Below, in pieces: positions 2,520-22,827 of a stretch of 22,864 nucleotides of DNA. The notes below the pieces were generated by a model that saw only the letters and a program-made list of their open reading frames with translations, was not told the DNA's origin and did no database searches. The position numbers were made by a program, and so were the translations under genes. Numbering within the stretch: the stretch's first letter is position 1; each line of letters begins with the position of its first letter. Source of the DNA: an uncultured Eubacterium sp. (GTDB lineage Bacteria > Bacillota > Clostridia > Lachnospirales > Lachnospiraceae); assembly GCA_946611445.1 (NCBI GenBank), contig CAMODP010000007.1, positions 1 through 22,864 on the forward strand, in the 5' to 3' direction.

Positions 2520-3797
2520 TCAGAACAGCAGTCCCGGCAGGAATGTGGCAGTCTGCGGTATGAAGATCAGCAGCAGGATGCACACCACGACCGCAGCCAG
2601 ATAAGCCGGCAGGTATGGCAGGACTTCCTTCATCTTGGCCTTGCCGATACCCATTGTGATGAACAGGACGCCGCCTACCGGAGGCGTCACGCCGGCATAA
2701 ACCAGTGTGATGACCATGATCAGCGCGAACTGAATAGGATTGATCCCGAACTGCATTGCGACCGGCATCAGGATCGGCGCGCAGATGATCGTAGCGGACA
2801 GTGTCTCAATGAACATTCCGACGATCAGCAGGAAGATCACAAGCAGGATCATGATGACATACTTGCTGTCCGTGAACGACACCAGTGCGTTGACGATGAT
2901 GGTCGGCACTTTTGCGTACGCCACGATCCAGCTGAATACATTGGCAGAGGCCACGATCAGAAGGGCCATGGTAGAGCTGGCGGCAGCGCCGACAAAAACT
3001 CTCGGCAGATCCTTGATGCTCAGCTCATGGTACACGAAAATACTGATGAACAGGGCATAAAATACGGCGATCGCGCCTGCTTCCGTGGCCGTAAAGAGGC
3101 CGCTGACGATGCCGCCGATGATGATGATCGGCATGATCAGCGCGAGAACCGCGTCTTTTGTCGCCTTCCAGATCTCAGCGCCCGTCGCTCCCTTTTCACC
3201 CTTGATCCCGAGCTTCTTAGCGTAGAGGAAGGTGACCAGAGCGGTTGCAGCAGCGATGATGATTCCGGGAATGATGCCCGCCATAAAGAGCTCTCCGATG
3301 GACTGGTTGGTGATGGAGCAGTAGATGATCATCGTCATGCTCGGCGGAATGATCGGCCCCAGGGAGCCGGCTGTCGCCTGTATCACACAGGCCAGTCCCT
3401 TTGGATAACCCTTTTTCTTCATGGGCTCGATCATGATGGAACCGATGGCTGCCGTATCCGCCGCAGCGGAGCCGGAGACGCCGGCAAAGATAACGCTTGT
3501 CAGGATGTCTACCATTCCCAGTCCGCCCGTAAATCGTCCGACCAGCGCGGAAGCAAAGTTGACGAGCCTCTTCGAGATGCCTCCGGCAGTCATCAGCTCA
3601 CCGGAGAGCATAAAGAACGGAATGGCCATCAGGGAAAAGGAATTGATTCCGGAAAACAGTCTCTGCCCGACAACCGCCAGGGAATTTCCTGTCGCGGCGA
3701 TGCCTATGATAGATGCCAGCCCCATGGAGAACGCGATAGGCACGCCGAGAAACAGGAGGATAATAAAGATTACAAATGCTATGACGAACATTGTCAT
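2520..3797 (-). CDS. dctM: TRAP transporter large permease, DctM type (425 aa)
   Basis: This is the large membrane subunit of a tripartite ATP-independent periplasmic transporter, the channel that couples organic acid uptake to an ion gradient. It is strongly hydrophobic with about 11-12 membrane segments. It carries family hallmarks: IPFFMLSGELM near residues 58-68, SGSAAADTAAIGSIMIEPMKKKGYP in mid-protein, GPIIPPSM, and a C-terminal VTPPVGGVLF. Its length is normal for DctM (about 425). The ATG overlaps the stop of the small permease gene by 4 nt (ATGA), which indicates translational coupling, and GGAGGG lies upstream. The gene symbol is family-level; substrate cannot be deduced from this subunit. 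Confidence 0.93.
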   Translation of the reverse strand: MTMFVIAFVIFIILLFLGVPIAFSMGLASIIGIAATGNSLAVVGQRLFSGINSFSLMAIPFFMLSGELMTAGGISKRLVNFASALVGRFTGGLGMVDILTSVIFAGVSGSAAADTAAIGSIMIEPMKKKGYPKGLACVIQATAGSLGPIIPPSMTMIIYCSITNQSIGELFMAGIIPGIIIAAATALVTFLYAKKLGIKGEKGATGAEIWKATKDAVLALIMPIIIIGGIVSGLFTATEAGAIAVFYALFISIFVYHELSIKDLPRVFVGAAASSTMALLIVASANVFSWIVAYAKVPTIIVNALVSFTDSKYVIMILLVIFLLIVGMFIETLSATIICAPILMPVAMQFGINPIQFALIMVITLVYAGVTPPVGGVLFITMGIGKAKMKEVLPYLPAYLAAVVVCILLLIFIPQTATFLPGLLF

Positions 3798-4300
3798 GAC
3801 CGGTTACCCTCCTTTTCTGCCAGTTCCCTTGCCTCCTCTTCCGGACGCTCTTTCAGACGGCGGCGCCAGTACCCGACCTGTCCGAAGATCATCAGGAAGA
3901 AACCGATGGGAATCGCCGCGTTGACAAGCCCCATATTGAGGCCTGTCATGGGCGATTTCTGAATGCGGTTCAGCCAGGCGCTCTGTGTTGTGAGCACCAC
4001 GACTGTGACGCTGAAGATGAGACAGATGATATTGACTGCCGTAAACAGGACTGTAAACTTTTTGCCCTTTGCGCCTTCCAGAATCAGGTCAAATGTTATA
4101 TTCATGCCGCGGCTGACCGTAATGCAGCCGCCGATGTACGTGAGCCAGACAAAGGTAAACTTCGAGATTTCGTCGATCCAGGTCTGTGAAATATGAAACA
4201 GTCTGCAGATGATCTGGATCAGGACGATCGTTGTCAGGAACGCGAACAGTATGAATACAATCGTATGGATTATTTTTTGAATTACATCATATGCTTTCAT
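3794..4300 (-). CDS. dctQ: TRAP transporter small permease, DctQ type (168 aa)
   Basis: This is the four-helix small membrane subunit that partners DctM. It has an N-terminal helix (VFILFAFLTTIVLIQIICRLF), the conserved WIDEISKFTFVWLTYIGG segment typical of DctQ proteins, and two further helices, ending in a charged tail. The start at 4300 (MKAYDV) is chosen over the in-frame ATG at 4312 because GGGAG lies 6-7 nt before it; the upstream ATG has no site. The gene sits between the binding protein (49-nt gap) and DctM (4-nt overlap), the usual P-Q-M order. The assignment is secure at family level. Confidence 0.92.
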   Translation of the reverse strand: MKAYDVIQKIIHTIVFILFAFLTTIVLIQIICRLFHISQTWIDEISKFTFVWLTYIGGCITVSRGMNITFDLILEGAKGKKFTVLFTAVNIICLIFSVTVVVLTTQSAWLNRIQKSPMTGLNMGLVNAAIPIGFFLMIFGQVGYWRRRLKERPEEEARELAEKEGNRS

Positions 4301-4349
4301 AGAATCTCCCATAAGACAATCGAAGGCTGTGCAGTTTTGCCGCCAAATG

Positions 4350-5621
4350 TCAGCGGAGCGCGTCGATCTCTGCCATCACATCCTGCAGGTTATTCTTCTC
4401 AACGAATTCGTCAAGGGCGGGTTTGCAGGCTGCCATCAGGGCTTCCTTGTCCACGTCCTCGATAAAGGTAACGCCGGCGTCCTTCATAGCCTGGTCGCTC
4501 TCCTCCTCGATGGTCTCATAGACCTCGTAGAAGTAGTCCATCGCCTCTACGGCACACTCATTGAGCAGGGCCTTCTGGCTGTCTGTCAGGGACTGGTAGA
4601 CGTTCTCGCTGATGCAGGTGCAGGTGCAGGTAAAGATATGCTCTGTCTTGGAGAAGGTATCTGCCACTTCATAGTATTTGGACTGGACGATAAATTCGGA
4701 GTTGCCCTCAAGGCCGTCGGTGACGCCGGTCTGGACTGCCGTATACACTTCGCCGGACGGCATGGCAACGGGTGTCGCGCCGAGCGCTGAGAAGCAGGCC
4801 TCGATGGACGGGTTGTCCGGCACGCGGACTTTTACGCCCTTCAGGTCTTCCGGTGTACGGACTTCCTTGCCCTTGAGCAGGACATTTCTGAACAGGATCG
4901 GCTGGATGGTGAGCGGATGGATGCCTGTCGTCTCTGATGCCATCTCGTTGAGCTTCGCGCCGATCTCACCGCTTACGACCTTCTGCGCATGCTCTTTGCT
5001 GGAGAAAACGTAAGGCATGTCGAAGATGCCGTATCTCGGGTCATAGCTGCCGAGCGTTCCGGTGTCAATGATCGTCATGTCGACAGAGCCCGCTACCAGG
5101 GCTTCGCAGTTTTCGGTCTGTCCGCCGAGCTGGCCGTCGGTGTAGATATCGATCTTCATGTTGCCGCCGCTCTTTTCTTCAAGCAGCTCCGCGAACTTCT
5201 GGGCGTATTTCACGCAGCCGTGCTCAGCGCTCAGGTGCGTGCTCAGCTTAAATTCATGGGGATCTCCGTCAATCTCAGCCGCGGTCTCTTCGCCGGATGC
5301 GGCGGATGCCGCAGAGGATGCGGTCTCTTCAGCCGCTTCAGACGCGGCGGATGCGGAGGAAGCTGCTTCCTCCGTCCCGGAATCTGCTGCTTCTGTGGAT
5401 TCTGCCTTTTCTGCAGAGGCGGCGGTTTCTTCGGTCTCTTCCTCTGTAGAGGCGGATGCCGCAGATTCTGCTGTCTCTGCGGAGGATGCGGCTTCCGCAG
5501 AGGAAGCGGAGACGGCTGTTTCCGACTTCGCGGAAGAGCTCTTTGCAGAGGAGGAGCCTCCGCATGCCGTCATAGAGAATAACAGTGCGCCGGACAATAA
5601 TACTGCGATCGCTTTTTTCAT
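4350..5621 (-). CDS. dctP: TRAP transporter solute-binding lipoprotein, DctP type, with long Ser/Ala/Glu linker (423 aa)
   Basis: This is the extracytoplasmic binding component that captures the substrate. A lipoprotein signal (MKKAIAVLLSGALLFSMTAC) ends at Cys20, expected to be lipid-anchored in a Gram-positive cell. Residues 21 to about 117 are a low-complexity stretch made almost entirely of Ser, Ala, Glu and Thr. The DctP fold then begins at HEFKLSTHL. Family motifs include EDLKGVKVRVPDN, with the conserved Arg that binds a carboxylate in characterised members, and GEVYTAVQTGVTDGLEGN. DctP proteins are usually about 330-350 aa; the extra length is the linker. The start has GGAG at good spacing. 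The gene is 68 nt downstream of the E3 gene in the same orientation, so it probably belongs to the same transcript. The ligand is likely a carboxylate, identity unknown. Confidence 0.92.
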   Translation of the reverse strand: MKKAIAVLLSGALLFSMTACGGSSSAKSSSAKSETAVSASSAEAASSAETAESAASASTEEETEETAASAEKAESTEAADSGTEEAASSASAASEAAEETASSAASAASGEETAAEIDGDPHEFKLSTHLSAEHGCVKYAQKFAELLEEKSGGNMKIDIYTDGQLGGQTENCEALVAGSVDMTIIDTGTLGSYDPRYGIFDMPYVFSSKEHAQKVVSGEIGAKLNEMASETTGIHPLTIQPILFRNVLLKGKEVRTPEDLKGVKVRVPDNPSIEACFSALGATPVAMPSGEVYTAVQTGVTDGLEGNSEFIVQSKYYEVADTFSKTEHIFTCTCTCISENVYQSLTDSQKALLNECAVEAMDYFYEVYETIEEESDQAMKDAGVTFIEDVDKEALMAACKPALDEFVEKNNLQDVMAEIDALR

Positions 5622-5689
5622 GATTTTTCTCCTTTTTTAATGTTTTATAGTTCACTTGTGAAAAAACATCTTACAGTTTCTGTTCTGCA

Positions 5690-7417
5690 TTACAGCTTGT
5701 GGACGCTGAGATGCTCCAGATCGTGGAAGGCTTCCATGATGATCTCGCTGACCGTCGGATGCGGATGGATGGTATCTGACACTTCTTCGGCGGTTGCTTC
5801 TGCCTTCATGGCCACGGCGATTTCGGCAATCATATCCGTGGCGTGCGGCGCTACGATCACGCCGCCGAGGATCTCCCCAGTCCGGGCTTCCGTCACGACC
5901 TTCGCAAAGCCCTCCTGGCAGCCCAGGATGACGCTTCTGCCGTTGCCGGCTGTGGAGAACATACCGGTCTGCACCTGCAGTCCTTTCGCCTTTGCCTCTT
6001 CTTCTGTCAGTCCGACTGCCGCAATCTCAGGATTCGAGTAGATGCAGGAGGGAACGATGTCATAAGCCATCTTCTTTTCTCTGCCCGCGCAGTTTGCGGC
6101 CGCCGTCAGGCCCTGCGCGCTGGCCACGTGCGCCAGCTGGATCTTGCCGGTGATGTCGCCGATGGCATAAATGTTCGGCACGTTTGTCTGCATTTTGTCA
6201 TTGACATTGATGAAGCCGCGGTCTGTCTTCTGCACGCCGGCAGCCTCCAGGCCGAGATCAGCTGTCACGGGACGGCGGCCGATCGCCACCACAACGGCTT
6301 CGCCCTCTGCCTCCTGCCGTGTCCCGTTTTCTTCGTAGACTACCTTCAGGCCGTCCTGAATCTCTACAACCTTGGCTCCTGTATGGATAACGACGCCTTT
6401 GGATTCGAGCAGCGCCCTCATGGTGTCAGCGGCGTCTTTGTCTATGGTGTTCAGGATGCGGGGCAGCGCCTCGATGATCGTCACTTTCTTACCGAAGGAG
6501 CTGTACAGGGTGGCAAATTCAATGCCGATGACACCGCCGCCGATGATCACGACGGATTCCGGAAGGGTCTCCATCGCCAGGACGCCGTCGGAATTCATGA
6601 CGCCGTCTTTCTCTATGCCGGGAATCGGAATGCGCACCGGTTCGGAGCCGGAAGCCAGGATGAGTTTGTCAGCTGTATACGTCTTTCCGCCCGCTTCAAA
6701 GCTGTGGATGCCTGTGAGGCAGGCCTTGTCCTTGAGCAGGGTAATCTTTCTGGCCTTTACCAGTTTTTCCACGCCGCCGCTCATGCGCTTCACGACCATC
6801 TGCTTGCGGGCGGCTGCCTTTGCGTAGTCCACTTCCACATGATCCGCGATGATGCCCAGATCCTTGCCGGAGCGCATCAGTTCCTCATACGTCTCGGCGC
6901 TGTGCAGAAGGGCCTTCGTCGGGATGCATCCGCGGTTCAGGCAGGTTCCGCCCATCTCGCGGTATTCTGCGAGAGCCGTCTTCAGGCCGTATTGGGCGCA
7001 GCGTATCGCCGCCACATAGCCGCCGGGGCCGCCGCCGATGACTGCCACATCAAAATCATAGGAGGAGGCAGCAGGCGCTGCCGCGGCGGAAGGCGCGGCT
7101 GCAGTCTCCTGCGCGGTCTGTGCCGTTTCTGCGGCGGCCGGGGTGCCGGCTTCCGCGAGAATCGCGCTGATATCTTCTCCCGGGGTGCCGATGACGGCGA
7201 TCGTCTCGGTGATCGGCACGACATCTCCCTCTCCGTGAACGATCTTCAAAAGCGTCCCGCTGGCGGGCGCGTCCATTGTTATCGTCAGTTTATCTGTCTC
7301 CATCTCGAAGAGCGGCTTGCCCTCCTCACAGGTCTCCCCTTCCTTCACGATCCACTGTACGATCGTGCCTTCTGTCATCTGGAGTCCCTGTTTCGGCATG
7401 ATTACTTTTTCAGCCAT
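5690..7417 (-). CDS. lpdA: Dihydrolipoamide dehydrogenase (E3) with fused N-terminal lipoyl domain (575 aa)
   Basis: E3 reoxidises the lipoyl groups of the 2-oxoacid dehydrogenase complex and passes electrons to NAD+. Residues 1-80 form a lipoyl domain, with Lys43 in the ETDK motif as attachment site. An Ala/Pro-rich linker of about 38 residues follows. The flavoprotein part begins with VIGGGPGG (126-133), the redox disulfide GGTCLNRGC (Cys159, Cys164), a second nucleotide-binding GGGVIGIE, and the C-terminal active-site HPHPTVSE. The start at 7417 (MAEKVIM) is chosen because it aligns with the E2 start; an ATG at 7462 lies within a hairpin. The lipoyl domain is nearly identical to that of the neighbouring E2. 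Lipoyl-fused E3 occurs in acetoin- and pyruvate-dehydrogenase operons of Gram-positive bacteria. The gene is third-to-last in an E1-E2-E3-TRAP operon. Confidence 0.93.
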   Translation of the reverse strand: MAEKVIMPKQGLQMTEGTIVQWIVKEGETCEEGKPLFEMETDKLTITMDAPASGTLLKIVHGEGDVVPITETIAVIGTPGEDISAILAEAGTPAAAETAQTAQETAAAPSAAAAPAASSYDFDVAVIGGGPGGYVAAIRCAQYGLKTALAEYREMGGTCLNRGCIPTKALLHSAETYEELMRSGKDLGIIADHVEVDYAKAAARKQMVVKRMSGGVEKLVKARKITLLKDKACLTGIHSFEAGGKTYTADKLILASGSEPVRIPIPGIEKDGVMNSDGVLAMETLPESVVIIGGGVIGIEFATLYSSFGKKVTIIEALPRILNTIDKDAADTMRALLESKGVVIHTGAKVVEIQDGLKVVYEENGTRQEAEGEAVVVAIGRRPVTADLGLEAAGVQKTDRGFINVNDKMQTNVPNIYAIGDITGKIQLAHVASAQGLTAAANCAGREKKMAYDIVPSCIYSNPEIAAVGLTEEEAKAKGLQVQTGMFSTAGNGRSVILGCQEGFAKVVTEARTGEILGGVIVAPHATDMIAEIAVAMKAEATAEEVSDTIHPHPTVSEIIMEAFHDLEHLSVHKL

Positions 7418-7532: not shown

Positions 7533-8894
7533 TCACAGCATCAGAACCGGCTGCTCAATATAGTCGCGTACCCGCACCAGGAATTCCGCTGCCGGCGCGC
7601 CGTCCACGATCCTGTGATCATAGCTGAGGGTAATGGTCATCATCGGCCGGATCACGATCTGGTCGTCAACGACCACCGGCGTCTTTTTGATGGCGCCCAG
7701 CGCAAGGATGCCGGACTCCGGCGGGTTGATGATAGCGGTAAAGGCATCCAGGCCGAACATGCCCAGATTAGAGACTGTAAAGGTGCCGCCGCTCATCTCG
7801 TCCAGGTTCAGCGTATTGTCCTTTGCCTTGCCGCCCAGCTCCTTTGCGGTCTGGCTGATCTCCTCCAGACGCATCAGGTCGGCGTCCTTGATATTCGGAA
7901 CGACCAGCCCGTTATCGATCGCCACGGCCATTCCCAGATTCACGTAGTCGTGCATCTCGATGCCTTCATCTGTAATAGCCGCGTTCATCATCGGGAAATC
8001 CATCAGCGCGCAGGCCGTGGCTTTCAGCACGATGTCATTGTAGGAAACCTTGATGCCCTTCTTCTTATACACTTCACGCAGCGCGGCTGCCTGCGTCATG
8101 TCCACGCATACCTGGTGCTGCAGCTGCGCTTCTGTCTGCAGGCTTTCCAGCATGCGCTGGCCGATGATCTTTCTGGAACGGCTCATCGGCACGATGCGGG
8201 CCTTCCTGCCAGTGCTGCCGGCGGCGCCTTCCTTTGCCGCCAGTGCGGCCGCACGGGCAGCAACGGCTGCCAGAATGTCGTTTTTCATAATTTTGCCGTG
8301 AGATCCGCTGCCGGACACCTCCTGCAGCTCCACGCCCTCGAGAGACGCAACCTTTTTCGCCAGCGGGCTGGCCTTGACGGCCGGCTGCGGCACGTAGCCG
8401 AGGACATCTCTCTCAATAACCAGATTGTCGGGGCCGGTAGCCGGCACATCCGCGATGTCGATGCTTTTCTCTTCCGCGCGCATACGGGCCCTCGGCGTGC
8501 TGAATTTGCGTCCGCCGGCCTGCTGTGCCGCGGCAGGGGCTGCCGGGGTCTGTGCCGGGGCGGCAGAAGCCAGCGTTTTCTCCTGTGCGGGAGCAGCGGG
8601 AGCAGCGCCGCCCGCTGCAGACTGTGCCTCAGCTACGATGGCGGAAATATCCTCCCCCGGCGCGCCGATGACGGCGATCGTCTCGGTGATCGGAACCACG
8701 TCCCCTTCCGGGCGGATGATCTTCAGCAGCGTGCCGCTGGCCGGGGCATCCATTGTTATTGTCAGTTTATCGGTTTCCATCTCGAAAAGGGGCTTTCCCT
8801 CTTCACAGGTCTCTCCCTCTTTGACGAGCCACTGTGTGATCGTGCCCTCAGTCATCTGGAGTCCCTGCTTTGGCATGATTACCCGTTCTGCCAT
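7533..8894 (-). CDS. 2-oxoacid/acetoin dehydrogenase E2, dihydrolipoamide acyltransferase with two peripheral-subunit-binding domains (453 aa)
   Basis: This is the core acyltransferase, moving the acyl group from E1 to CoA. Domains in order are a lipoyl domain (1-80, Lys43 in ETDK), an Ala/Pro linker, a first peripheral-subunit-binding domain (about 131-166, STPRARMRAEEKSID), a second (about 174-210, KASPLAKKVASLEGVEL followed by GSGSHGKIMKNDI), and the catalytic domain from about 231. The catalytic motif DHRIVDG is at about 426-432. Two binding domains in tandem are unusual, as most E2 proteins have one. The start has a GGGGG-rich site upstream and aligns with the E3 lipoyl start. Only 18 nt separate it from the E1 beta stop. 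The E1 partners look acetoin-dehydrogenase-like, so acetoin or a related diketone is the best family-level guess, without proof. Confidence 0.92.
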   Translation of the reverse strand: MAERVIMPKQGLQMTEGTITQWLVKEGETCEEGKPLFEMETDKLTITMDAPASGTLLKIIRPEGDVVPITETIAVIGAPGEDISAIVAEAQSAAGGAAPAAPAQEKTLASAAPAQTPAAPAAAQQAGGRKFSTPRARMRAEEKSIDIADVPATGPDNLVIERDVLGYVPQPAVKASPLAKKVASLEGVELQEVSGSGSHGKIMKNDILAAVAARAAALAAKEGAAGSTGRKARIVPMSRSRKIIGQRMLESLQTEAQLQHQVCVDMTQAAALREVYKKKGIKVSYNDIVLKATACALMDFPMMNAAITDEGIEMHDYVNLGMAVAIDNGLVVPNIKDADLMRLEEISQTAKELGGKAKDNTLNLDEMSGGTFTVSNLGMFGLDAFTAIINPPESGILALGAIKKTPVVVDDQIVIRPMMTITLSYDHRIVDGAPAAEFLVRVRDYIEQPVLML

Positions 8895-11034: not shown

Positions 11035-11046
11035 ATAATCGATTAA
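11035..11046. promoter_or_regulatory. Operator A (ATAATCGATTAA)
   Basis: This near-perfect palindrome with core TAATCGATTA (11036-11045) lies in the 5' untranslated region of E1 alpha. Its centre is exactly 19 bp from operator B. It is probably a binding site for the GntR/FCD regulator encoded at 12180-12842. Confidence 0.65.
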
Positions 11047-11051
11047 AGATT

Positions 11052-11067
11052 TAATAATCGATTATTA
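11052..11067. promoter_or_regulatory. Operator B (TAATAATCGATTATTA)
   Basis: A perfect 16-bp palindrome, the longest of six related sites, sits at about +2 to +17 of the predicted transcript from the E1 alpha promoter. A bound protein there would block initiation or early elongation. The pairing with operator A at 19 bp is repeated by operators D and E near the other promoter. Confidence 0.7.
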
Positions 11068-11075
11068 TCATCTTT

Positions 11076-11103
11076 ATTATAGCCACGCCCGTGAAAAAGT
11101 CAA
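11076..11103 (-). promoter_or_regulatory. Sigma-A-type promoter of the E1-E2-E3-TRAP operon
   Basis: On the minus strand TTGACT (11103-11098) is followed by 16 nt and a perfect TATAAT (11081-11076). This predicts a start near 11069, immediately before operator B, giving a leader of roughly 100 nt. The 357-nt non-coding stretch 10971-11327 holds this promoter, operators A, B and C and the terminator of the upstream unit; I see no gene in it. Confidence 0.75.
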
Positions 11104-14558: not shown

Positions 14559-16959
14559 CGTATTCTACCTCCTTGCGGAATAAGATGTGCTCCGGCTTGA
14601 TGGGGAGCGATGTAAAGCTGGCATTGCAGGCGTTGCAGACCGCGTTGGCGATCGCGCCGGCCGTCGGCACCATTCCCGGCTCTCCGATGCCCTTGGCGCC
14701 GTACGGCCCCTCGGGATGTCCGTTTTCAACCAGGGTAAGCTTTGCTTCAAATGCAGAATCCATAAAGGTCGGGACCTTGTAGTCTACCATATTTCCGTTG
14801 CGCAGCTGCCCGTCCTCGTAAATCATCTCTTCCATGAGCGCATGTCCCATGCCCATGATGATGGACCCCTCGATCTGCTGCAGGCAGCCGGTCGGATTGA
14901 TGGCCTTGCCCACATCATGACCGGCGCCGATCCGCTGTATCTTCACCCGCCCGGTAATGGGGTTAACCTTCACGACAGCCGCCTGTGCGCCTATCATCCA
15001 CATGACCGTAGGCCGTTCAGACTGCCGGCCGTCAAATGGCGGCGGATCAAAAATATCCGAAGATCCGTATCGTCCGATGGCGATCACCGGAGCCTGCTCA
15101 TGCATGATGCCGCTGCTGCCGACATCATTGATGTGAATTCTCTTTGTCTCATCTGTTTTGTGCTGGATCCAGCCTTCGCTGGTATAGTCGATCTCTTCCT
15201 CGCTGCAGCCCCATTTGATGGCCGCCAGGGCGCAGAGCTGCTGTTTGATGCCTTCGCAGGCCTCCAGGATCGCGTTGCCCGAATGGAAGGTAGACCGGGA
15301 GGATGTCGTTGTCTTGTCAAACGGCGTCTGATCGGTATCCACCTGCGGTACGCTGACTTTGTCAAAATCTATGCCGAGCGACTGTGCCGCGAACTGGGCC
15401 ATGGTCGTCGTCACGCCCTGTCCCATCTCCCGGCTGGCAGACCATATGAACAGTGAGCCGTTGCCGTTCATCTTCAGCACGCAGGAAGTCGTCGAAGGCG
15501 TTCCCGTGAGCTTGTTAAAGCAGCAGATTCCCTTCCCGCAGAGGTTGCCCTCTTCATCCGTCCAGCGCAGCGGCAGCTTTTCCCAGCTGATGTTGCGGGC
15601 GGCTGCCCGGAGGCATTCGTCCACCGCACAGGTGGAAATGATCTCACCGGTAATGCCGGAATCTCCGTCATGGAGACAGTTCTTCAGACGGAATGCCAGC
15701 GGATCCATCCGCAGCTTTCTGGCAACGATATCCATCTGCCGCTCATGCAGCGTGCATGCTTCCGACACGCCGAATCCCCTGTACGCGGTCCCCAGTGTCC
15801 TGTTTGTCATATATACCCAGGTATCCACCTGCGCGTTCGGGATCTTGTAAGGACCGTTCGCGGCAAAGCCGGCATTATAGTTCACGCGGGGGTTTGTCGT
15901 CACATAGGCGCCGGCGTCCCAGTAGCCGCGCACCTGCTGCGCGGTAATCGTTCCGTCCTTTTTTACACCCGTCTTGATATAATACTGCACGGCAGAGCGG
16001 CAGACAGAGGCAAGGAACTCTTCACTCCGGTCGAAAGTCAGCCTGACCGGTCTCCCGCCGCAGCGAAACGACAGGGCAATGGCGATCGGCTCTGCCCGGA
16101 CCTCATACTTGCCTCCGAATCCTCCACCGATCTCTGTCAGGGTCAGTCTGACCTTTTCCTCCGGAACATGGAAGATGCCAGCCAGCAGGCCCCGGATCCC
16201 AAACGGAGACTGATTCGGCGTCCAGACCCGGATCTCCTTCGTGTGCGGATTTGCGACAGCCGTCGCCGTATGCGTCTCCATCAGCGTATGCTGCAGCTGC
16301 CCCAGACGGAACTGGGACTCCACTACCAGATCCGCCTCGGCAAACCCCTTCTCCACGTCTCCCTTCTTCAGGTGGAACCGGTCTCCTATATTTGTCCCCT
16401 GCACAGGAAAGCAGGCGGAACCGCACTTGTAGCTGTTCCAGTCTTCGTGGATCAGCACTTCGTTTTTCATGGAATCCTCCAGGGAATTGACCACCGGAAG
16501 AAGCTCATATTCCACATCGATCAGTTTCAGAGCCTCCTGCGCGCTCTGTTCATCCTCGGCTGCCACCGCCGCCACAGGCTCGCCCTGATAACGCACCTTG
16601 TCGACTGCCATCATCGGCTGATCCGCGATAAAGGAACCAAAAAGATCCGGGTAGTCTTTCCCGGTGATTACGGCCCACACGCCGGGAGCCTCAGCGGCAC
16701 GGGACGTGTCAATGCTCTTGATCCTGGCATGCGGATGAGGACTGCGCAGCACCTTCGCGCACAGCTGCCCCTGCAGATTCAGATCCGCCCCGAACAGAGC
16801 CGTGCCAGTGACCTTTGCGACCGCATCCTTGCGCAGCTGCGTGTGGCCGATGATCTTTTCTGTTCCGTCCGTATCTTTCCGGTGCACTACGAGGCGATCC
16901 CAGTCGCTCCCTTCGGGATGAAACTCCTCACAGGGAACAAGTCTGTCTATATCTGACAA
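14542..16959 (-). CDS. Molybdenum hydroxylase, molybdopterin-binding large subunit (805 aa)
   Basis: This is the catalytic subunit of a xanthine-dehydrogenase-family enzyme, hydroxylating a ring carbon or aldehyde with water as oxygen source. Visible features are KDAVAKVTGTALFGADL, which opens the conserved region near residue 44, GGGFGGK (278-284), AYRGFGVSEA, EMGQGVTTTMAQFAAQSLG and the catalytic GAKGIGEPG with Glu760. The start is taken as TTG at 16959 because AAAGGAGG lies about 6-7 nt before it; an ATG at 17028 would include a hairpin and non-conserved sequence and has no site. The first 38 residues have no counterpart in the core family. The yqeB gene downstream points to the selenium-dependent subgroup. 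The substrate is unknown; xanthine is possible by family, but no purine-degradation genes are near. Confidence 0.92.
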   Translation of the reverse strand: MSDIDRLVPCEEFHPEGSDWDRLVVHRKDTDGTEKIIGHTQLRKDAVAKVTGTALFGADLNLQGQLCAKVLRSPHPHARIKSIDTSRAAEAPGVWAVITGKDYPDLFGSFIADQPMMAVDKVRYQGEPVAAVAAEDEQSAQEALKLIDVEYELLPVVNSLEDSMKNEVLIHEDWNSYKCGSACFPVQGTNIGDRFHLKKGDVEKGFAEADLVVESQFRLGQLQHTLMETHTATAVANPHTKEIRVWTPNQSPFGIRGLLAGIFHVPEEKVRLTLTEIGGGFGGKYEVRAEPIAIALSFRCGGRPVRLTFDRSEEFLASVCRSAVQYYIKTGVKKDGTITAQQVRGYWDAGAYVTTNPRVNYNAGFAANGPYKIPNAQVDTWVYMTNRTLGTAYRGFGVSEACTLHERQMDIVARKLRMDPLAFRLKNCLHDGDSGITGEIISTCAVDECLRAAARNISWEKLPLRWTDEEGNLCGKGICCFNKLTGTPSTTSCVLKMNGNGSLFIWSASREMGQGVTTTMAQFAAQSLGIDFDKVSVPQVDTDQTPFDKTTTSSRSTFHSGNAILEACEGIKQQLCALAAIKWGCSEEEIDYTSEGWIQHKTDETKRIHINDVGSSGIMHEQAPVIAIGRYGSSDIFDPPPFDGRQSERPTVMWMIGAQAAVVKVNPITGRVKIQRIGAGHDVGKAINPTGCLQQIEGSIIMGMGHALMEEMIYEDGQLRNGNMVDYKVPTFMDSAFEAKLTLVENGHPEGPYGAKGIGEPGMVPTAGAIANAVCNACNASFTSLPIKPEHILFRKEVEYDAAEI

Positions 16960-17026: not shown

Positions 17027-17039
17027 ATCCGCAGTCATC

Positions 17040-17990
17040 TTATTTCTCCGGCATCTCCCAGTTGAAGAAGCTCCAGTATGGTTCGCTGATCCGCTTTGCG
17101 AAATCAGCCATATCCACCTTGGACCAGTCGTAGTAGCCCTTGCCGGATTTTACGCCGAATTCTTTTTTCTCGTAATGTTCCCTGATCGAAGGCATTGCCT
17201 CTTTTGCGTCGCTCAGATCCTTGAACAGGTAGTTTTCGATGTCGTAATTCAGGTCTACGCCGGAGTTGTCGATGTGTTCAAAGATACCGATCTTCGTGTA
17301 CCGCGGCATAAAGCTGTACATGGCCGCCTTGTCCACGTCCCTGGGATCGGCGATGCCGCGCTCCACAATATTGATGGCTTCGCGGAACAGCGCGTGCTGC
17401 AGACGGTTCGCAATGAAGCCGGGCGCGTTCTTTTTCAGGACTACTACGGCCCTGTCAGCAGATTCCAGCAGTTCTACGGCGCCTTCCGTCACACCGTCTT
17501 TCGTTTTCACGCTCTTGACGACCTCGAAATACGGCACAAGATGCGGCGGGAAGAACGGATGGGCCACGATCATGCGGTCCGCGAATTTGTCCAGGCCTTC
17601 CACCAGATCATCCGCGGAAAGGGCGGATGTCGTCGAGATGATCGCCTTCGGATCCGTGATGTATTTTTCGATCTCCGCGTAGATCCCGTGCTTGACCGGA
17701 ATGTTCTCGAAAGCGCATTCAAAGACATAGTCCGCGTCCGCGATCGTGCTGTAATCCTGGGTGTAATGCAGGCAGCCACGGCAGGCCTCATACTGCGCCT
17801 CCGTCACCAGGCCCTGGTCCATCAGGGCCTTGAAGAATGTCTCATACTGCTGTTCGCTTTTTACCTGCAGCTCGTCATTGACGGCAAACAGGGTGGTCCT
17901 GTACCCATGACCGGTGAAAAGCACCGCCATGCTCGTGCCGATCATTCCGGTCCCGATAATGGCTATGTTGTGAATATGTTCCAGTTTCAT
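17040..17990 (-). CDS. 3-hydroxyacyl-CoA dehydrogenase-like NAD-dependent oxidoreductase (316 aa)
   Basis: This is an NAD-dependent dehydrogenase of the 3-hydroxyacyl-CoA dehydrogenase superfamily, oxidising a beta-hydroxy group. Residues 8-22 (NIAIIGTGMIGTSMA) form the nucleotide-binding turn. ISTTSALSADDL is the conserved mid-region and AHPFFPPHLVPYFEVVKS holds the catalytic His144. The C-terminal domain ends with GVKSGKGYYDW. The HPFFPP form, rather than the HFFNP of fatty-acid enzymes, is closer to the lambda-crystallin, L-gulonate 3-dehydrogenase and carnitine-dehydrogenase branch, which act on free beta-hydroxy acids. This suggests, but does not prove, a non-CoA substrate. AGGAGG lies 7 nt before the ATG. 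It follows the MBL-fold gene by 19 nt in one operon. Confidence 0.88.
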   Translation of the reverse strand: MKLEHIHNIAIIGTGMIGTSMAVLFTGHGYRTTLFAVNDELQVKSEQQYETFFKALMDQGLVTEAQYEACRGCLHYTQDYSTIADADYVFECAFENIPVKHGIYAEIEKYITDPKAIISTTSALSADDLVEGLDKFADRMIVAHPFFPPHLVPYFEVVKSVKTKDGVTEGAVELLESADRAVVVLKKNAPGFIANRLQHALFREAINIVERGIADPRDVDKAAMYSFMPRYTKIGIFEHIDNSGVDLNYDIENYLFKDLSDAKEAMPSIREHYEKKEFGVKSGKGYYDWSKVDMADFAKRISEPYWSFFNWEMPEK

Positions 17991-18009: not shown

Positions 18010-18873
18010 TCACTTCCCGAGCTTGTTCATGACATAATCATAGGCGACCATGACGTTGTGCTCCTGGATATAGTCCATGGCGTCAGCCTGTCCGATATCG
18101 ACCGGGCAGCGGTCCGCAAAGCTGATCTTCTTCACGCACTCTTCTTTGGACCAGCCCTTTGCGATGCCGTCAGACACAGCAGAAAACCAGTCATAAAGGA
18201 GCTGTTTGTTCTCGTAGATCGCTTCCTTGCCGCAGACGGGGCCGTGGCCCGGAACGATGTATTTCACATCGAGCGTGTTCAGGAAATCCAGTGTCTTGAA
18301 CAGTTCATCCGGCATGGCGGAATGCAGCCAGATCTGGCAGTCCTTGAAGATGGTGTCTCCGACGAAGGCCACTTTTTCTTCGGGAACATAGATGATGATA
18401 TTCGCGTCGGAGTGGCCGGGCGCGTAATACAGTTCAAAGGTATGGTCGCCCAGCTTCAGCGTCATTCTCTCGGAGAAGGTGACCTGCGGCATGTTGATGA
18501 TGTAATCCTTCTCCTCCGGCATGTACTTCAGGCCTTCAGGATCCTGGTTTCTGATGACGTCCACGCTGTAGTCATAGGTAGTCTGGTTGAATGCGGGCGG
18601 AATCTTCCAGAAGGTTTTCTTCAGGTTCTCATGTCCGATGACGATGGACTCGCCGGCGAACCAGTGATTGCCGAAGATGTGGTCAATGTGCGACTCTGTG
18701 TTGATCAGATAGCGGATCGGTCCCCGTTCCCTGGCGAACGCGCGCATCTCGAGGAGGGGCGTGATCCACTGGGCGGTATCGATAAAGACGGATCCCTCGG
18801 AGGTGAATACAATACTGGGGTTGCAGCCCCGGATCTCTGTCTCGGCATATACGTTGGGTGTTAACTGCTGCAT
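18010..18873 (-). CDS. Metallo-beta-lactamase-fold hydrolase with a Glu in the first metal-ligand position (287 aa)
   Basis: This is a soluble MBL-superfamily hydrolase. The metal-binding motif reads NTESHIDHIFGN (58-69): His62, Asp64 and His65 fit the usual HxHxDH pattern, but the first His is replaced by Glu60. Other ligands are present: PGHS (His154), VGDTIF (Asp173) and VPGHGPV (His210). Superfamily members cleave thioesters, lactones, phosphate esters or amides. No signal peptide is seen, so it acts in the cytoplasm. The start at 18873 is chosen over an in-frame ATG at 18936 because AAGGAG precedes it and the longer form would overlap the upstream gene. It lies 25 nt after the HPr-kinase-like gene. 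In this pathway a thioesterase, lactonase or phosphoesterase role is plausible but undecided. Confidence 0.88.
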   Translation of the reverse strand: MQQLTPNVYAETEIRGCNPSIVFTSEGSVFIDTAQWITPLLEMRAFARERGPIRYLINTESHIDHIFGNHWFAGESIVIGHENLKKTFWKIPPAFNQTTYDYSVDVIRNQDPEGLKYMPEEKDYIINMPQVTFSERMTLKLGDHTFELYYAPGHSDANIIIYVPEEKVAFVGDTIFKDCQIWLHSAMPDELFKTLDFLNTLDVKYIVPGHGPVCGKEAIYENKQLLYDWFSAVSDGIAKGWSKEECVKKISFADRCPVDIGQADAMDYIQEHNVMVAYDYVMNKLGK

Positions 18874-18898: not shown

Positions 18899-19804
18899 TC
18901 AGAACTCCTGTTCCATAATCTTCTCAATCTCGTCAAACAGGATCTGCGGGGATTTCGCGCGGATCATGTAGAACGGTCTGCCGGCGGCAAACTGCGAGCA
19001 GAATTTCGCTCTGTGCTGTCTGCGGACGGGATCATCATCCACTACCGGCATAGCCAGGCCGTTCACGCCGCAGAGGAGCTGATTCATGCCAAAGAAGTTC
19101 ATCAGCGAATGGAAAAGCTGGTAGGAAGCCTCAAACTGTCCCATCTTGGTGACCTGGGTCTGGAAATGGCCGTCGATGCAGGGCATGATGCACAGATCCA
19201 TCTTGCAGGGCTCATATACCATCTTCATATCCGGCTCTTTGCCGAAGAACATGGTCACGCCCTGATCCTGATCCGGCAGGTCGCTTCGCTCGGTGCCTTT
19301 CGCCCTCTTGCGGACATAGATGTTTTTGGAGCCGTACAGCGCCAGCCCGTCTTCGTCGGTAACGGTCGTCTCAGTGGAGAACAGATCCGCGCCGCGCGCG
19401 CAGCCTTCCAGCTGTGTCATGGACTTGCCGTGGTTGTTCTCGCCGCCTACGAGCAGGATGCCTTTGCCCTTGTAGATGATGCTGGAGGAATGGAAAGGAT
19501 GCATGCCGCACTTGTCCATCTCATTGGCCAGCATGGATACCATGATCTTGTTGAGCTCGCCTTCCTCCCAGAAGCTGTTCAGAGTCAGGACCCCGTTTTC
19601 AAACGTGATGCTTTTCACCGGCTCGTCGTAGTTCCAGATGATATCCGCCTTCTCCTTTGTCACCTTGTCGGAAACTTCGACAGTTCCCAGACGGTAATTC
19701 AGGAAGGACATATCTTCAGCGATCTTATCTCTGTCCGGTCCGCCGATTACATCAAAGCGGATGGCCGCCTTGCCGGATGACAGCTGTTCAGAAAAAACCT
19801 TCAT
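18899..19804 (-). CDS. HPr-kinase/PEPCK-like P-loop protein (301 aa)
   Basis: The middle of the protein has SSSIIYKGKGILLVGGENNHGKS (about 106-128), ending in a Walker A motif GENNHGKS, with the preceding beta strand and spacing typical of HPr kinase/phosphorylase and PEP-carboxykinase-like domains. Following segments (ADLFSTETTVTDEDGLALYG) match the position of the strand carrying the second nucleotide/metal motif, though the acidic pair is not classical. The first 100 residues and the last 100 are not recognised; no membrane segment or signal is seen. GGAGAG lies 6 nt before the ATG. It sits between the ATP-binding phosphotransferase subunit (57-nt gap) and the MBL hydrolase (25-nt gap). 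HPr itself is not encoded nearby. It could phosphorylate a small molecule or regulate the phosphotransferase. The function is unknown. Confidence 0.6.
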   Translation of the reverse strand: MKVFSEQLSSGKAAIRFDVIGGPDRDKIAEDMSFLNYRLGTVEVSDKVTKEKADIIWNYDEPVKSITFENGVLTLNSFWEEGELNKIMVSMLANEMDKCGMHPFHSSSIIYKGKGILLVGGENNHGKSMTQLEGCARGADLFSTETTVTDEDGLALYGSKNIYVRKRAKGTERSDLPDQDQGVTMFFGKEPDMKMVYEPCKMDLCIMPCIDGHFQTQVTKMGQFEASYQLFHSLMNFFGMNQLLCGVNGLAMPVVDDDPVRRQHRAKFCSQFAAGRPFYMIRAKSPQILFDEIEKIMEQEF

Positions 19805-19861: not shown

Positions 19862-20815
19862 TTACAGCGTGGTGATCGGGCGGGACTGCAGCATATACAG
19901 CTGTCCGTCTTCCTCGAAGGCCCACTCCACGTCCTCGGGTTTTCCGTAGAACTCTTCGATCCGGTTGGCCACATCCACCAGGTCTTTGATATTCTGTTCC
20001 GTCAGGACCGGCTCCTCGCGGATCTCATCCGGCACCGGGATCTCCTTTGTGCCGCCTTTGTCAGACAGGCGCACAACCATGGTCTCTTTCTCGGAGATAT
20101 ACTCTGTGACGACTTCCAGTGTCTTCTTGTTGATCCAGAGGTTGTCAGGCGTCACGATGCCGGAGACGACACTTTCGCCGAGTCCCCATGCCGCCTCGAT
20201 CATGCAGACTGCAGGATCCTTTGTGACCGGATTCTGGGTAAACATGACGCCGGCCTTCTGGGAATTGACCATCTTCTGCACGACAACGGCGATGGAAACC
20301 TCTTCTTCCCTGAAGCCTTTCTCTCTGCGGTAAAAGATCGCGCGGTCATTGTAAAGGGAAGCCCAGCATTCCTTCACAAAGCGGACAAGATCCTCCTCGC
20401 CGATGACGAACAGATAGGTCTCCTGCTGTCCGGCAAAGGAGGCATCATCCAGATCCTCAGCCGTCCCGCTGGACCGCACCGCAACCGGTCCGTTGTTGAA
20501 CCTGGCGTAATACTGCTTCAGCTCCTGATCCATATCCTCCGGCATCGCCGTATCGCAGATTTTTTTCCGGATCTTCTCAGCCGTCTCGATCAGATTGGCA
20601 TTGCTGGAAAAATCGATTGTTTTGATCGTGTCCAGCGCAAACTGGCGGAGACCGCAGCGGTCCATAAACTCGTTGAACATCTCAGACCGGACGATAAAGC
20701 CCTCCGGCACCCGCAGTCCCGCGCGGAACATGCGGCACAGGCTGGCACCCTTGCCGCCGGCTGCCAGGGCCAGCTGCTCATCCGGTATCTCATCAAACCA
20801 TGCTAAACGTCCCAT
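19862..20815 (-). CDS. PEP-synthase-like ATP-binding subunit, stand-alone (317 aa)
   Basis: This protein corresponds to only the N-terminal, ATP-binding domain of PEP synthase. GGKGASL (20-26) is followed by VAVRSSGTAEDLDDAS (111-126) and FAGQQETYL, then VMFTQNPVT and EAAWGLGESVVSG. It ends with DVEWAFE and LYMLQSRPITT, exactly where the domain ends in full-length enzymes of about 790-870 aa. The domain transfers phosphate (AMP plus Pi products in the family) from ATP to a histidine on a swivelling domain. That histidine domain is in the preceding gene, so the two products should form one enzyme, as in phenylphosphate synthase of Thauera aromatica and in contrast to single-chain PEP synthase and rifampin phosphotransferase. 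GGAG lies 7 nt before the ATG. The gap to the preceding gene is 185 nt and holds hairpins. Confidence 0.88.
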   Translation of the reverse strand: MGRLAWFDEIPDEQLALAAGGKGASLCRMFRAGLRVPEGFIVRSEMFNEFMDRCGLRQFALDTIKTIDFSSNANLIETAEKIRKKICDTAMPEDMDQELKQYYARFNNGPVAVRSSGTAEDLDDASFAGQQETYLFVIGEEDLVRFVKECWASLYNDRAIFYRREKGFREEEVSIAVVVQKMVNSQKAGVMFTQNPVTKDPAVCMIEAAWGLGESVVSGIVTPDNLWINKKTLEVVTEYISEKETMVVRLSDKGGTKEIPVPDEIREEPVLTEQNIKDLVDVANRIEEFYGKPEDVEWAFEEDGQLYMLQSRPITTL

Positions 20816-21000: not shown

Positions 21001-22710
21001 TCAGGAAATAATCTCAACCTTTCCGGTATTGCCGTCTACGCGGACTCTGTCTCCGGTCTTGATCAGCTGTGTGGCGCGTCTTGTGCCGACGACACACGGA
21101 ATGCCGAACTCACGGGAGACAACTGCCGGATGGGACAGGGCGCCGCCGGTATCTGTGACGAGCGCGCCGATCTGCGAGAAGCAGACGACCCAGGCCGGAT
21201 TTGTCATCTTGCAGACGAGGACTTCGCCCTTTTTGACATCGTCCAGATCCTTCGGATCCGTGATGAAGCGGGCTGTGCCCTCGTAAACACCCGGATATCC
21301 CGGAATACCCTTCAGGACAGTCTTGGAAATTTCTGCGTTGGTCTTCAGTTCTTCCTGCTCAGCCTCAAATTTCTGAGGATATCCCCACAATGTCTTGTAG
21401 GGCTCTTCATAGATCTGCCACTGCGTAGCCGTTCCGTACCACTCTCTCGGATGATGCTTTCTGGCTTCTGCCATGGCCGCGCGGTTCTTTGCCGCGATCT
21501 CTTTTGCAGGATAGTTCTTGTCAACGCCTGCGCAGCGGATATCTTCATATCCGAGCATGAAGATGTCTTCCGGATCATCGAGGATGCCTTCCTTTACGAA
21601 CATCTTGCCGATCTCCAGGAACATCAGACGCATATGGCTGAATACGCCCTGGTCCAGATAGAAGTGATGGTCCGGCGTGATCGGAGCCATCTGTACGCAC
21701 AGATGCAGATAATGACGCATCTTCGTGACCTTCTCGGGATCCTTGATCTTCTCGAACATCCGGTCAATGGCTTCCTGCTGCTCTCTCTTACAGGTCTCGT
21801 AATGATCGTCGAAATTATAGTCGCTCTTCAGGTAATCCTTGATCGTATCCAGAACCGGTGTCGGATCCTCATATACCGTCTTGTAGATGTACTCATGGGT
21901 GTACAGCGCATGGAAGCCGTACTCCTTGCGGTAGTCGTTCAGCATGTTGAAGAAGGTCTTGCCGTCCTCCGTCTCCTGGAGCTTCTCCATGATGACTTCC
22001 TTTTCGTTCTCTTCGAACATCTTGCGAAGCGCCGGATGCCCCTTTACGAACTCCTTCATGTTCCAGAGCTCACGGAGAGAGTCCCAGTTCCTGTCGTCTG
22101 TAGAGACGTTGATCTTGCCGACCTCATCATCAACCTGTCCGATGACCTCTTTGTAGTAATCCACAAAGTCGCTGGAAGCCTTGAACTGGGCCAGATTGAT
22201 GATCCAGTGAATCTTGAATGCGCGCTCCTGCATATCCAGGCAGTCTTCCATATGGATCAGGGCCTGCGGAATGGTGCTGTGCTCAAAATCAAAGTTCAGG
22301 ATCTTCTCCCAGTAGCCCTTGATCTCCGGGATGTATTCGGTTCTCCATCTCTCATAGAAGGACTCCGCGTACTCCGGCATGACCGTCATATAGTAAGTAA
22401 ACAGGCTGTTGGTCTGCTCCGGTTTTGTCTTGGGCGGCACAACCGCTGTATAGACATAACCGCCGATTTTCTTTGCAATCCACTCGCTGCCGATCGGCGC
22501 GCCGAATCGTCTGTACATATACTCGCAGGTCGGTCCCCACCAGCCGTTGCAGTCAAAATACAGCGGGGAGATCGGGTTCGGGCAGTGCAGATCATCATAA
22601 AACCAGAACAGACCTTTATCTTCGTCATTTTTCCATTCCGGCTTAATCGGATCATTTTCTCCGAAATAAGTAGCAAGGATTTTTTCGCTGCTCAATTCAT
22701 TCACCTCCAT
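21001..22710 (-). CDS. PEP-synthase-like phosphotransferase subunit with phosphohistidine swivel domain (569 aa)
   Basis: The C-terminal 100 residues are a PEP-utilising mobile domain: DTGGALSHPAVVSREFGIPC with the phospho-accepting His at about residue 527, and a terminal GDRVRVDGNTGKVEI. The first 400 residues resemble the substrate domain of rifampin-phosphotransferase-like and phenylphosphate-synthase-alpha-like proteins (for example DYRKEYGFHALYTHEY followed by EDPTPVLDTIKDYL). They are rich in Trp, Tyr and His, as expected for a pocket binding an aromatic or polar ligand. There is no ATP-binding domain; that is the next gene. The ATG at 22710 has no ribosome binding site. GGAGGTG lies immediately after it and fits a TTG start at 22695 (MSSEKIL), which I consider equally or more likely. 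It is the first gene of the right-hand unit, directly below operators D-F. The substrate phosphorylated is unknown. Confidence 0.85.
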   Translation of the reverse strand: MEVNELSSEKILATYFGENDPIKPEWKNDEDKGLFWFYDDLHCPNPISPLYFDCNGWWGPTCEYMYRRFGAPIGSEWIAKKIGGYVYTAVVPPKTKPEQTNSLFTYYMTVMPEYAESFYERWRTEYIPEIKGYWEKILNFDFEHSTIPQALIHMEDCLDMQERAFKIHWIINLAQFKASSDFVDYYKEVIGQVDDEVGKINVSTDDRNWDSLRELWNMKEFVKGHPALRKMFEENEKEVIMEKLQETEDGKTFFNMLNDYRKEYGFHALYTHEYIYKTVYEDPTPVLDTIKDYLKSDYNFDDHYETCKREQQEAIDRMFEKIKDPEKVTKMRHYLHLCVQMAPITPDHHFYLDQGVFSHMRLMFLEIGKMFVKEGILDDPEDIFMLGYEDIRCAGVDKNYPAKEIAAKNRAAMAEARKHHPREWYGTATQWQIYEEPYKTLWGYPQKFEAEQEELKTNAEISKTVLKGIPGYPGVYEGTARFITDPKDLDDVKKGEVLVCKMTNPAWVVCFSQIGALVTDTGGALSHPAVVSREFGIPCVVGTRRATQLIKTGDRVRVDGNTGKVEIIS

Positions 22711-22731
22711 AAATATATTTACGTTGTCTGC

Positions 22732-22764
22732 TATGATCGATTATATCATCTATAATCGATTATT
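22732..22764. promoter_or_regulatory. Tandem operators D and E with an embedded -10 box
   Basis: Operator D (22732-22745, TATGATCGATTATA, one mismatch) and operator E (22752-22763, ATAATCGATTAT, perfect) have centres exactly 19 bp apart, the same as operators A and B. On the minus strand a perfect TATAAT (22745-22740) falls within D, about 30 nt before the first ATG, with only a weak -35 candidate upstream. Binding would cover the -10 and spacer, implying repression. This is the probable promoter of the right-hand unit. Confidence 0.6.
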
Positions 22765-22813
22765 AAAACCATATTTTTCACTCTGGAGGCACTTTTGGCA
22801 TATTAATCAAGTT

Positions 22814-22827
22814 TGTAATCGATTATT
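22814..22827. promoter_or_regulatory. Operator F (core TAATCGATTA)
   Basis: A 10-bp perfect palindrome (22816-22825) lies 63 bp upstream of operator E, centre to centre. It is the third member of the right-hand cluster, mirroring the two-plus-one layout of operators A, B and C. Confidence 0.55.

Follow-up and report, generated by a model that had tools for sequence, protein, structure and literature searches.

In the anaerobic phenol pathway, which is built on phenylphosphate synthase and a carboxylase, a UbiD-type carboxylase adjoins the dikinase. Phenols are phosphorylated by the described two-component dikinases HpeHI, CreHI and PpsAB, which are split in the same manner as the enzyme considered here (PMC12167813). 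The latter enzyme, formed by PepC and PpsN, belongs to an island of 18 genes in an uncultured Eubacterium sp. (contig CAMODP010000007.1); the window, that is, the whole analysed stretch of 22,864 nucleotides, is the entire contig, and its parent assembly measures 1.95 Mb and is 67% complete. The island has in common with HpeHI, CreHI and PpsAB the split into ATP-grasp and substrate/swivel subunits, an RPH-like fold, a catalytic His motif and a presumed initiating role in catabolism, a likeness of description and not of sequence. The partners differ, being in the island a molybdenum (Mo) enzyme, a metallo-hydrolase, a 3-hydroxyacyl-CoA dehydrogenase-family protein (HCDH), a compact protein of phosphoenolpyruvate (PEP) carboxykinase fold, here called mini-PEPCK, and an E1-E2-E3 complex dependent on thiamine pyrophosphate (TPP). 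The UbiD-type carboxylase of the phenol pathway is not among the families of the 18 island proteins in the window, which gave neither a UbiD- nor an acetone-carboxylase-family match.

Other anaerobic routes are similar in part. The hydroxyhydroquinone/hydroxybenzoquinone route of Azoarcus anaerobius reportedly applies a pyruvate dehydrogenase (PDH)-type enzyme to the ring-cleavage product and is not known to involve a dikinase; it would share the PDH-type enzyme with the island, and malate as its product would fit the malic enzyme encoded beside E1-E3 in the related genome RUG100. Phloroglucinol breakdown employs a 'cyclase' family that we take to be PF04199. In the pathway of Clostridium scatologenes (PGR-DPGC-TfD-TAL) the ring is opened by a 'cyclase'-family enzyme, and the free acid is the substrate of a protein with a 3-hydroxyacyl-CoA dehydrogenase annotation (PMC10470551); ring opening by a metal-hydrolase and then an HCDH-family enzyme on a free acid would be the shared elements, whereas the window has phosphorylation, a Mo enzyme and a TPP/lipoate complex instead. 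No short-chain dehydrogenase/reductase (SDR), cyclase or beta-keto-acid-cleavage family (PGR, cyclase, TAL) was found among the window proteins.

We read the island, with moderate confidence, as a single catabolic regulon in which phosphorylation is the first step and a compound of phenol or enol type is degraded, and for which we infer the substrate and the order of steps. The island itself is real, and of what was computed here (the genes present, the folds matched by predicted models, an operator common to both units, and co-occurrence) the operator and the co-occurrence of E1 support a dedicated, conserved regulon. The operator ATAATCGATTAT occurs six times in the window with at most one mismatch, against a mean of 0.03 in 30 Markov shuffles. 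A close E1-beta (72-87% identity) is present in 11 of 19 distinct carriers of mini-PEPCK (20 handles, of which G564 and G606 gave identical places and were counted once) and in 0 of 199 non-carriers (Fisher p ~7e-14, a value to be read in view of carriers that are partly related and mostly incomplete metagenome-assembled genomes). The background was one family, the 200 genomes around G603 with the seed included, at thresholds of E 1e-40 and 1e-80; only the seed has a close E1-beta and the other 199 reach at most 54%. On this comparison of sequences the E1-E2-E3 unit is a partner of the rest of the island, in line with the initial annotation, which had placed thiamine-dependent cleavage in the same pathway. 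That annotation knew of no described pathway with this combination, and no published description of the whole gene set was found in the open-licence PubMed Central (PMC) literature either.

Layout and operator

The initial annotation had described a one-strand island between 2.5 and 22.7 kb, in two units with matching operators. From DctM (2520) up to the PEP-utilising protein (22710), the 17 genes are on the minus strand without exception, and family matches agree with its list; its range was too short, as the minus-strand PHP-domain gene (1660-2406) comes after DctM, and the 18 genes span 22.7 to 1.66 kb. Read in the direction of transcription, unit 1 comprises PepC, PpsN, the 301-aa mini-PEPCK, the metallo-beta-lactamase-family hydrolase, HCDH, MoL, MoM, MoS, the GntR/FCD regulator and YqeB, and unit 2 comprises E1-alpha, E1-beta, E2, E3, DctP, DctQ, DctM and the PHP-domain protein. 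The features are given below with predicted functions; starts called preferred were judged from the bases upstream of each gene.

22733-22744 (one mismatch), 22752-22763 (exact) and 22815-22826 (one mismatch), no strand assigned: operator cluster of unit 1, from a pattern scan
21001-22695, minus: PepC, substrate-binding and swivelling phosphohistidine subunit of a two-component small-molecule dikinase; TTG start at 22695 preferred
19862-20815, minus: PpsN, ATP-grasp subunit of the dikinase (PF01326, 355 bits)
18899-19804, minus: mini-PEPCK, 301 aa, compact PEP-carboxykinase-fold protein with P-loop GGENNHGKS, by model fold
18010-18873, minus: metallo-beta-lactamase-family hydrolase with motif TESHIDH; ATG start at 18873 preferred
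17040-17990, minus: HCDH; closest PDB sequence FHMPC 5-dehydrogenase
14542-16959, minus: MoL, molybdopterin subunit of a xanthine-oxidase-family enzyme; TTG start at 16959 preferred; closest PDB sequence 4-hydroxybenzoyl-CoA reductase alpha
13614-14558, minus: MoM, FAD subunit of the same enzyme, by family match
13009-13581, minus: MoS, its 2Fe-2S subunit, with 8 conserved Cys
12180-12842, minus: GntR/FCD regulator, likely reader of ATAATCGATTAT; ATG start at 12842 preferred
11328-12122, minus: YqeB, maturation protein of selenium-dependent molybdenum hydroxylases (TIGR03309, 347 bits, cut-off 220)
11253-11294, minus: terminator-like hairpin of unit 1 with a T run, -25.9 kcal/mol
11035-11222, no strand assigned: operators at 11035, 11054 and 11211 and, on the minus strand (11103-11076), promoter-like TTGACT-16-TATAAT of unit 2, from scans
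10008-10970, minus: E1 alpha of the TPP-dependent dehydrogenase complex; ATG start at 10970 preferred
8913-9896, minus: E1 beta, by family match
7533-8894, minus: E2 acyltransferase with lipoyl domain, by family match
5690-7417, minus: E3 dihydrolipoyl dehydrogenase with N-terminal lipoyl domain; ATG start at 7417 preferred
2520-5621, minus: DctP-DctQ-DctM, tripartite ATP-independent periplasmic (TRAP) transporter, by family matches
1660-2406, minus: PHP-domain (YcdX-like) protein, possible phosphoesterase, by family match; a relative in 12 of 18 fetched sets

Two neighbouring details were observed: a gene for a PhoU-domain protein (834-1640, plus strand) converges on the last gene of the island, and in DctP (4350-5621) a Ser/Ala/Glu-rich stretch of ~100 residues separates the signal peptide from the binding domain.

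The matching operators and the division into two units both held up. Within the window ATAATCGATTAT is exact at 11054, 11211 and 22752, with one mismatch at 11035, 22733 and 22815, and the three exact copies in the 1.95-Mb assembly all lie inside the window. The operators of unit 2 stand just behind the promoter-like element before E1-alpha, which matches the consensus at 11 of 12 positions, a placement in which a bound repressor could block transcription; before PepC the promoter scan listed no such element. Between YqeB and this promoter region the hairpin with its T run (11294-11253) closes unit 1, and the consensus scan did not list it.

The exact 12-mer was sought in ten genomes (G000, G112, G121, G596, G598, G600, G603, G605, G607 and G610), in which a reversed control pattern gave zero matches. 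In eight of them, namely all except G605 and G610, exact sites occur on island contigs and nowhere else: three sites in G000, one in G121, two each in G598, G600, G603 and the one-contig 3.3-Mb genome G112, where both lie in the island itself, four on three contigs in G607, and three matches in G596, where the overlap of contig ends makes two of them a single site. In the relatives the operator stands before PepC or between PHP and GntR. The exact operators of G610 precede an MFS permease (L111:5192) and a CoA-transferase / acyl-CoA dehydrogenase / ETF / HpaB-family cluster (L112:8792). A GntR of at least 38% identity is found in the fetched sets of the eight genomes with island sites (the window's own counted), and the identity is just 30-33% in G605 and G610; since it is high where the operator is on the island and low in these two, the island's GntR/FCD protein is, on sequence grounds, the likely reader of the operator.

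Enzymes of the island and a heteroaromatic alternative

The predicted model of PepC, with a predicted local distance difference test score (pLDDT) of 88.5, has rifampin phosphotransferase as its best Foldseek match (E 1.5e-19), the next other protein following at 2e-5. The ATP-grasp and substrate/swivel domains are on two polypeptides, PpsN and PepC, as in the two-component dikinase subfamily, and GGALSH, invariant in 17/17 aligned PepC sequences, agrees with the subfamily motif GGX(T)(S/C)H with Leu at the Thr position. Judged by the model, the phosphoryl activation named in the initial annotation is that of a split rifampin-phosphotransferase-type dikinase. PepC homologs number 2393 at E <=1e-3 (the best 120 of 2393 listed), and at E <1e-60 PepC was found in 4 of 398 genomes of a phylum-wide draw, own genome counted.

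Neither Pfam nor NCBIfam gave a match for the 301-aa protein at E 1e-3. Its model has a compact PEPCK-type fold, which is shared with the PEP carboxykinase / HprK superfamily; compared with PEP carboxykinase it covers no more than roughly residues 98-456 of 515, and PF01293 does not match it, though the same profile finds two other places in its own genome. HPr kinase proper was rejected as its identity, given that the PEPCK matches cover model residues 1-300 and the HprK matches about 99-300. Mini-PEPCK was found in 3 of the 398 genomes of the same draw (own genome counted) and in 1 of the 200 genomes around G603, the seed itself, with no match in the plasmid collection. It represents an uncharacterised enzyme family that may add a new step.

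The Mo enzyme has the composition of the xanthine-oxidase family, with Mo, FAD and 2x[2Fe-2S] subunits, 8 conserved Cys in MoS and the motif GIGE in 16/16 sequences, the Glu of which is the catalytic Glu of these molybdoenzymes. Among the PDB sequences matched by MoL the closest is the alpha subunit of 4-hydroxybenzoyl-CoA reductase (334 bits); carbon monoxide dehydrogenase scores 286 bits, and quinoline oxidoreductase (240) and a nicotinate enzyme (223) are also matched; against TIGR03194, the profile of 4-hydroxybenzoyl-CoA reductase, MoL scores 486.6 bits, below the NCBIfam cut-off of 994.55. 4-hydroxybenzoyl-CoA reductase carries an additional [4Fe-4S] cluster in its FAD subunit. Both this reductase and the urolithin C dehydroxylase Ucdh are, like the island enzyme, of the three-subunit xanthine-oxidase family; unlike theirs, the FAD subunit of the island has no conserved four-Cys cluster, MoM showing just 2 conserved Cys columns over 16 sequences. 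Since a gut xanthine-oxidase-family enzyme dehydroxylates a phenol (PMC12771579), a reductive role is possible for the island enzyme by analogy. Purine catabolism, hinted by YqeB and by xanthine dehydrogenase matches, was set aside, as MoL is closer to 4-hydroxybenzoyl-CoA reductase. With YqeB in the window, the Mo enzyme may carry selenium.

The genes proposed for hydrolysis and for beta-hydroxy oxidation were both recovered. The hydrolase (18010-18873) is of the metallo-beta-lactamase family, and its TESHIDH, invariant in 14/14 sequences, has Glu where the usual motif of the family starts with His. HCDH is a 3-hydroxy-acid-type dehydrogenase with FHMPC 5-dehydrogenase (134 bits) as closest PDB match and lambda-crystallin at 97 bits. 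Vitamin-B6 catabolism is hinted by the HCDH match; the PDB list of the metallo-hydrolase shows no pyridoxolactonase, a result that leaves room for such a role.

The molybdenum-dependent hydroxylation of the initial annotation had a three-subunit molybdoenzyme to rest on. Hydroxylation next to a ring nitrogen is part of a rival reading, which we consider unlikely. Here the substrate would be a hydroxylated N-heteroaromatic acid: the Mo enzyme would hydroxylate the carbon beside the nitrogen before or after phosphorylation of the ring hydroxyl, and the metallo-hydrolase would open a cyclic amide. Most xanthine-oxidase-family enzymes hydroxylate, quinoline and nicotinate enzymes are among the matches of MoL, and the closest PDB sequence of HCDH acts, by its name, on a pyridine compound. 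Moreover, the 'cyclase' family, a member of which stands in for the metallo-hydrolase in the relative G121, includes isatin amide hydrolase (PMC10470551). However, MoL is closer to 4-hydroxybenzoyl-CoA reductase, and no amidase-family match occurs among the 18 window proteins.

Distribution, variants and linkage of the E1-E2-E3 genes

Eighteen fetched locus sets were compared, all chosen for mini-PEPCK and with L015, L022 and L079 left out; several absences among them are contig ends, and gene calls in related loci came from a simple script that left many open reading frames there without names. PepC and PpsN are present together in 16 sets, MoL in 15 (and cut in 1 more), the hydrolase and HCDH in 13 each, PHP in 12 and a GntR of at least 48% identity in 11; the MoL proteins are 44-78% identical, so they are not one ortholog group. 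TRAP, which supplies the uptake function of the initial annotation, and YqeB occur in 0/18 sets, lack support as shared parts and were rejected as core members; as far as seen, TRAP would be a companion in its own genome only. A scan of named genomes gave 17 mini-PEPCK loci, in 6 Oscillibacter (one of the records being Oscillibacter valericigenes strain An860), 3 other Oscillospiraceae, 3 Lachnospiraceae and 5 others. The class around G112 (3 genomes) gave nothing further.

Some loci differ by the kind of enzyme. G121, of which 20 of 24 kb are covered, keeps the dikinase, mini-PEPCK and E1-E3, together with an aldehyde:ferredoxin oxidoreductase (AFOR)-type enzyme, a 4Fe-4S protein, an SDR and a PF04199 cyclase, and without a Mo enzyme, HCDH or metallo-hydrolase match; its gene content suggests replacement of enzymes by function type. 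In G186 the dikinase stands with two AFOR proteins, fumarase-type subunits, an HMGL-like protein and a cyclase. L079:928-15226 has a dikinase, two AFOR-type enzymes, fumarase-type subunits, an HMGL-like protein, a cyclase and an AtuA-family protein, with no mini-PEPCK match in the 20 kb covered. In another phylum, a plasmid record of Thermomicrobium roseum (L115:6505-18850) has a dikinase, a three-subunit Mo enzyme, a cyclase, GntR and FAH-family, Tm-1-like and PEP-hydrolase-family proteins.

Another group of variants bears on a second reading, in which the substrate is polyhydroxy or reductone-type (sugar-acid-like): the dikinase would phosphorylate an enediol, lactonases would open it, HCDH would act like L-gulonate 3-dehydrogenase, and the TPP enzymes would cleave a ketose. 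L014, L017, L018 and L019 have differing subsets of cupin, SMP-30, Zn-alcohol dehydrogenase, aldehyde dehydrogenase and transketolase genes near mini-PEPCK. In G607 (L110:4447-16793) an exact operator precedes a sugar-type cluster of split transketolase, aldehyde dehydrogenase, Mo enzyme, dikinase, DUF1097, cupin and SMP-30, while a contig with an overlapping end carries Zn-alcohol dehydrogenase and mini-PEPCK; this genome has both kinds of cluster with the same operator. The match of HCDH to lambda-crystallin, a protein with gulonate dehydrogenase activity, also favours this reading, as do DctQ and DctM, which resemble diketogulonate TRAP subunits, far under the cut-offs. Yet a Mo enzyme and a cyclase are unusual for sugar acids, and the transporter is not conserved. 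The described two-component dikinases of the subfamily act on phenols (PMC12167813). We regard the sugar-acid substrate as unlikely.

In four cases, the window, G112, A57_49 and G607, the E1-E3 genes adjoin the island; RUG100 and G121 also have them near it, the E1-beta there being more distant (50-51%). In G607, E1-alpha and E1-beta come after GntR, PHP, two operators and a GAPDH-family gene. In RUG100 (L109:310-9141 and L005:42-1856, overlapping contig ends) E1-alpha, E1-beta, E2 and E3 are followed in order by lipoate ligase, a lactate-racemase-family protein, malic enzyme, operators and PepC; the malic enzyme hints at, and would fit, a malate-type product. The name 'Aco-like', given to the complex in the initial annotation, is at most putative: four carriers (G601, G602, G603 and G611) also have unassigned E1-beta paralogs at 41-50%. 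The distances of E1-beta correlate with those of MoL (0.84, 12 genomes), MoM (0.73), HCDH (0.69, 11 genomes), PHP (0.65) and PpsN (0.55).

Nine stretches (L067-L075) were compared for operator-like sites, namely the eight in which E1-E3 is unlinked to the island, and A57_49. Within 300 bases before E1-alpha, 7/9 have a site that departs from the operator at no more than two positions, and in two cases at just one, against 3.6% of 1800 shuffles; none was found in L068, where 84 bases are covered, and L074, nor directly before E1-alpha in L066, L109, L035 and L033. Another GntR, 29-33% identical to that of the island, occurs in 7/9 of these stretches and could read the degraded operator there, perhaps as a related regulator with a shifted site.

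Counter-evidence and proposed route

Several results weigh against a single regulon for a phenol- or enol-type compound. Eight of the 19 carriers (G596, G597, G600, G604, G606, G608, G609 and G121) have no close E1-beta, the best reaching 29-51%, and in 8 of the 11 genomes with a close E1-beta, E1-E3 is on a different contig from the island. No exact operator was found in the nine stretches L067-L075 or in the whole-genome scan of G605, and both exact operators of G610 are on contigs other than its island stretch. The correlation of E1-beta distances is only moderate for PepC (0.50, p 0.02) and for the hydrolase (0.37, p 0.01), and it is lacking for mini-PEPCK (r 0.23, p 0.17) and GntR (0.29, p 0.09). 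Some relatives join mini-PEPCK and the Mo enzyme to sugar-type enzymes (SMP-30, Zn-alcohol dehydrogenase, split transketolase), no dikinase was found in the L017 and L018 stretches examined, and the profile match of mini-PEPCK to PEPCK alone is not significant (E 0.15).

The separate contigs and the TRAP genes never seen with the rest would suit two unrelated operons side by side, one with the dikinase and Mo genes, the other an ordinary operon for acetoin or pyruvate dehydrogenase together with TRAP. We judge this very improbable given that, in the window as in G607, both units have the same operator in front of them, and given the co-occurrence of E1-beta (11/19 against 0/199), the adjacency also in G112 and A57_49, and the operator-like sites before 7/9 E1-alpha genes in L067-L075. 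The independent occurrence of the units, which the initial annotation had named as grounds for giving up its proposal, is half borne out: it is seen in position and not in presence, which is tied to the island.

For the regulon preferred here we infer repression, each reaction, their order and the ring nature of the substrate as follows. The GntR/FCD protein probably represses at ATAATCGATTAT sites, and the substrate or an intermediate would relieve it. PepC and PpsN would move phosphate from ATP, via phosphohistidine, to an acidic hydroxyl group, of phenol or enol type, on a ring compound. The ring, once activated, would undergo a two-electron change by the xanthine-oxidase-family molybdoenzyme. 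The metallo-hydrolase would then open the ring or a lactone/amide, the PHP protein may take off the phosphate, HCDH would oxidise the free 3-hydroxy acid, and E1-E2-E3 would act on its product, a 2-oxo acid or an alpha-oxygenated ketone, in a cleavage that yields acyl-CoA and NADH, with mini-PEPCK probably acting on an enol-phosphate/beta-keto-acid pair. As a TPP/lipoate complex requires a 2-oxo acid or an alpha-oxygenated ketone, neighbouring oxygens are expected in the substrate. Across the variants a recurring plan may be recognised: phosphorylation, a two-electron change by a Mo or AFOR-type enzyme, a metallo-hydrolase or cyclase, hydroxy-acid oxidation and TPP cleavage, the middle of which is similar to phloroglucinol breakdown (PMC10470551). 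Several of the 17 named records are from animal guts (deer, sheep, water buffalo), which makes a plant-derived substrate a fair guess.

A bolder version, which we put forward tentatively and consider unlikely, is that, once the dikinase has acted, the shortened PEP-carboxykinase adds CO2 to the phosphorylated ring compound or removes CO2 from it, that the Mo enzyme (or, in variants, an AFOR-type tungsten enzyme) dearomatises it, and that anaerobes in this way would open a phenolic ring without a CoA thioester, the carbon passing through the TPP/lipoate complex. The analysis names the regulon, the kinase and the uncharacterised PEPCK-fold enzyme family as objects for study; if the reading of the shortened PEPCK is true, the island would represent a further way for strict anaerobes of gut and sediment to use aryl- or enol-phosphates.

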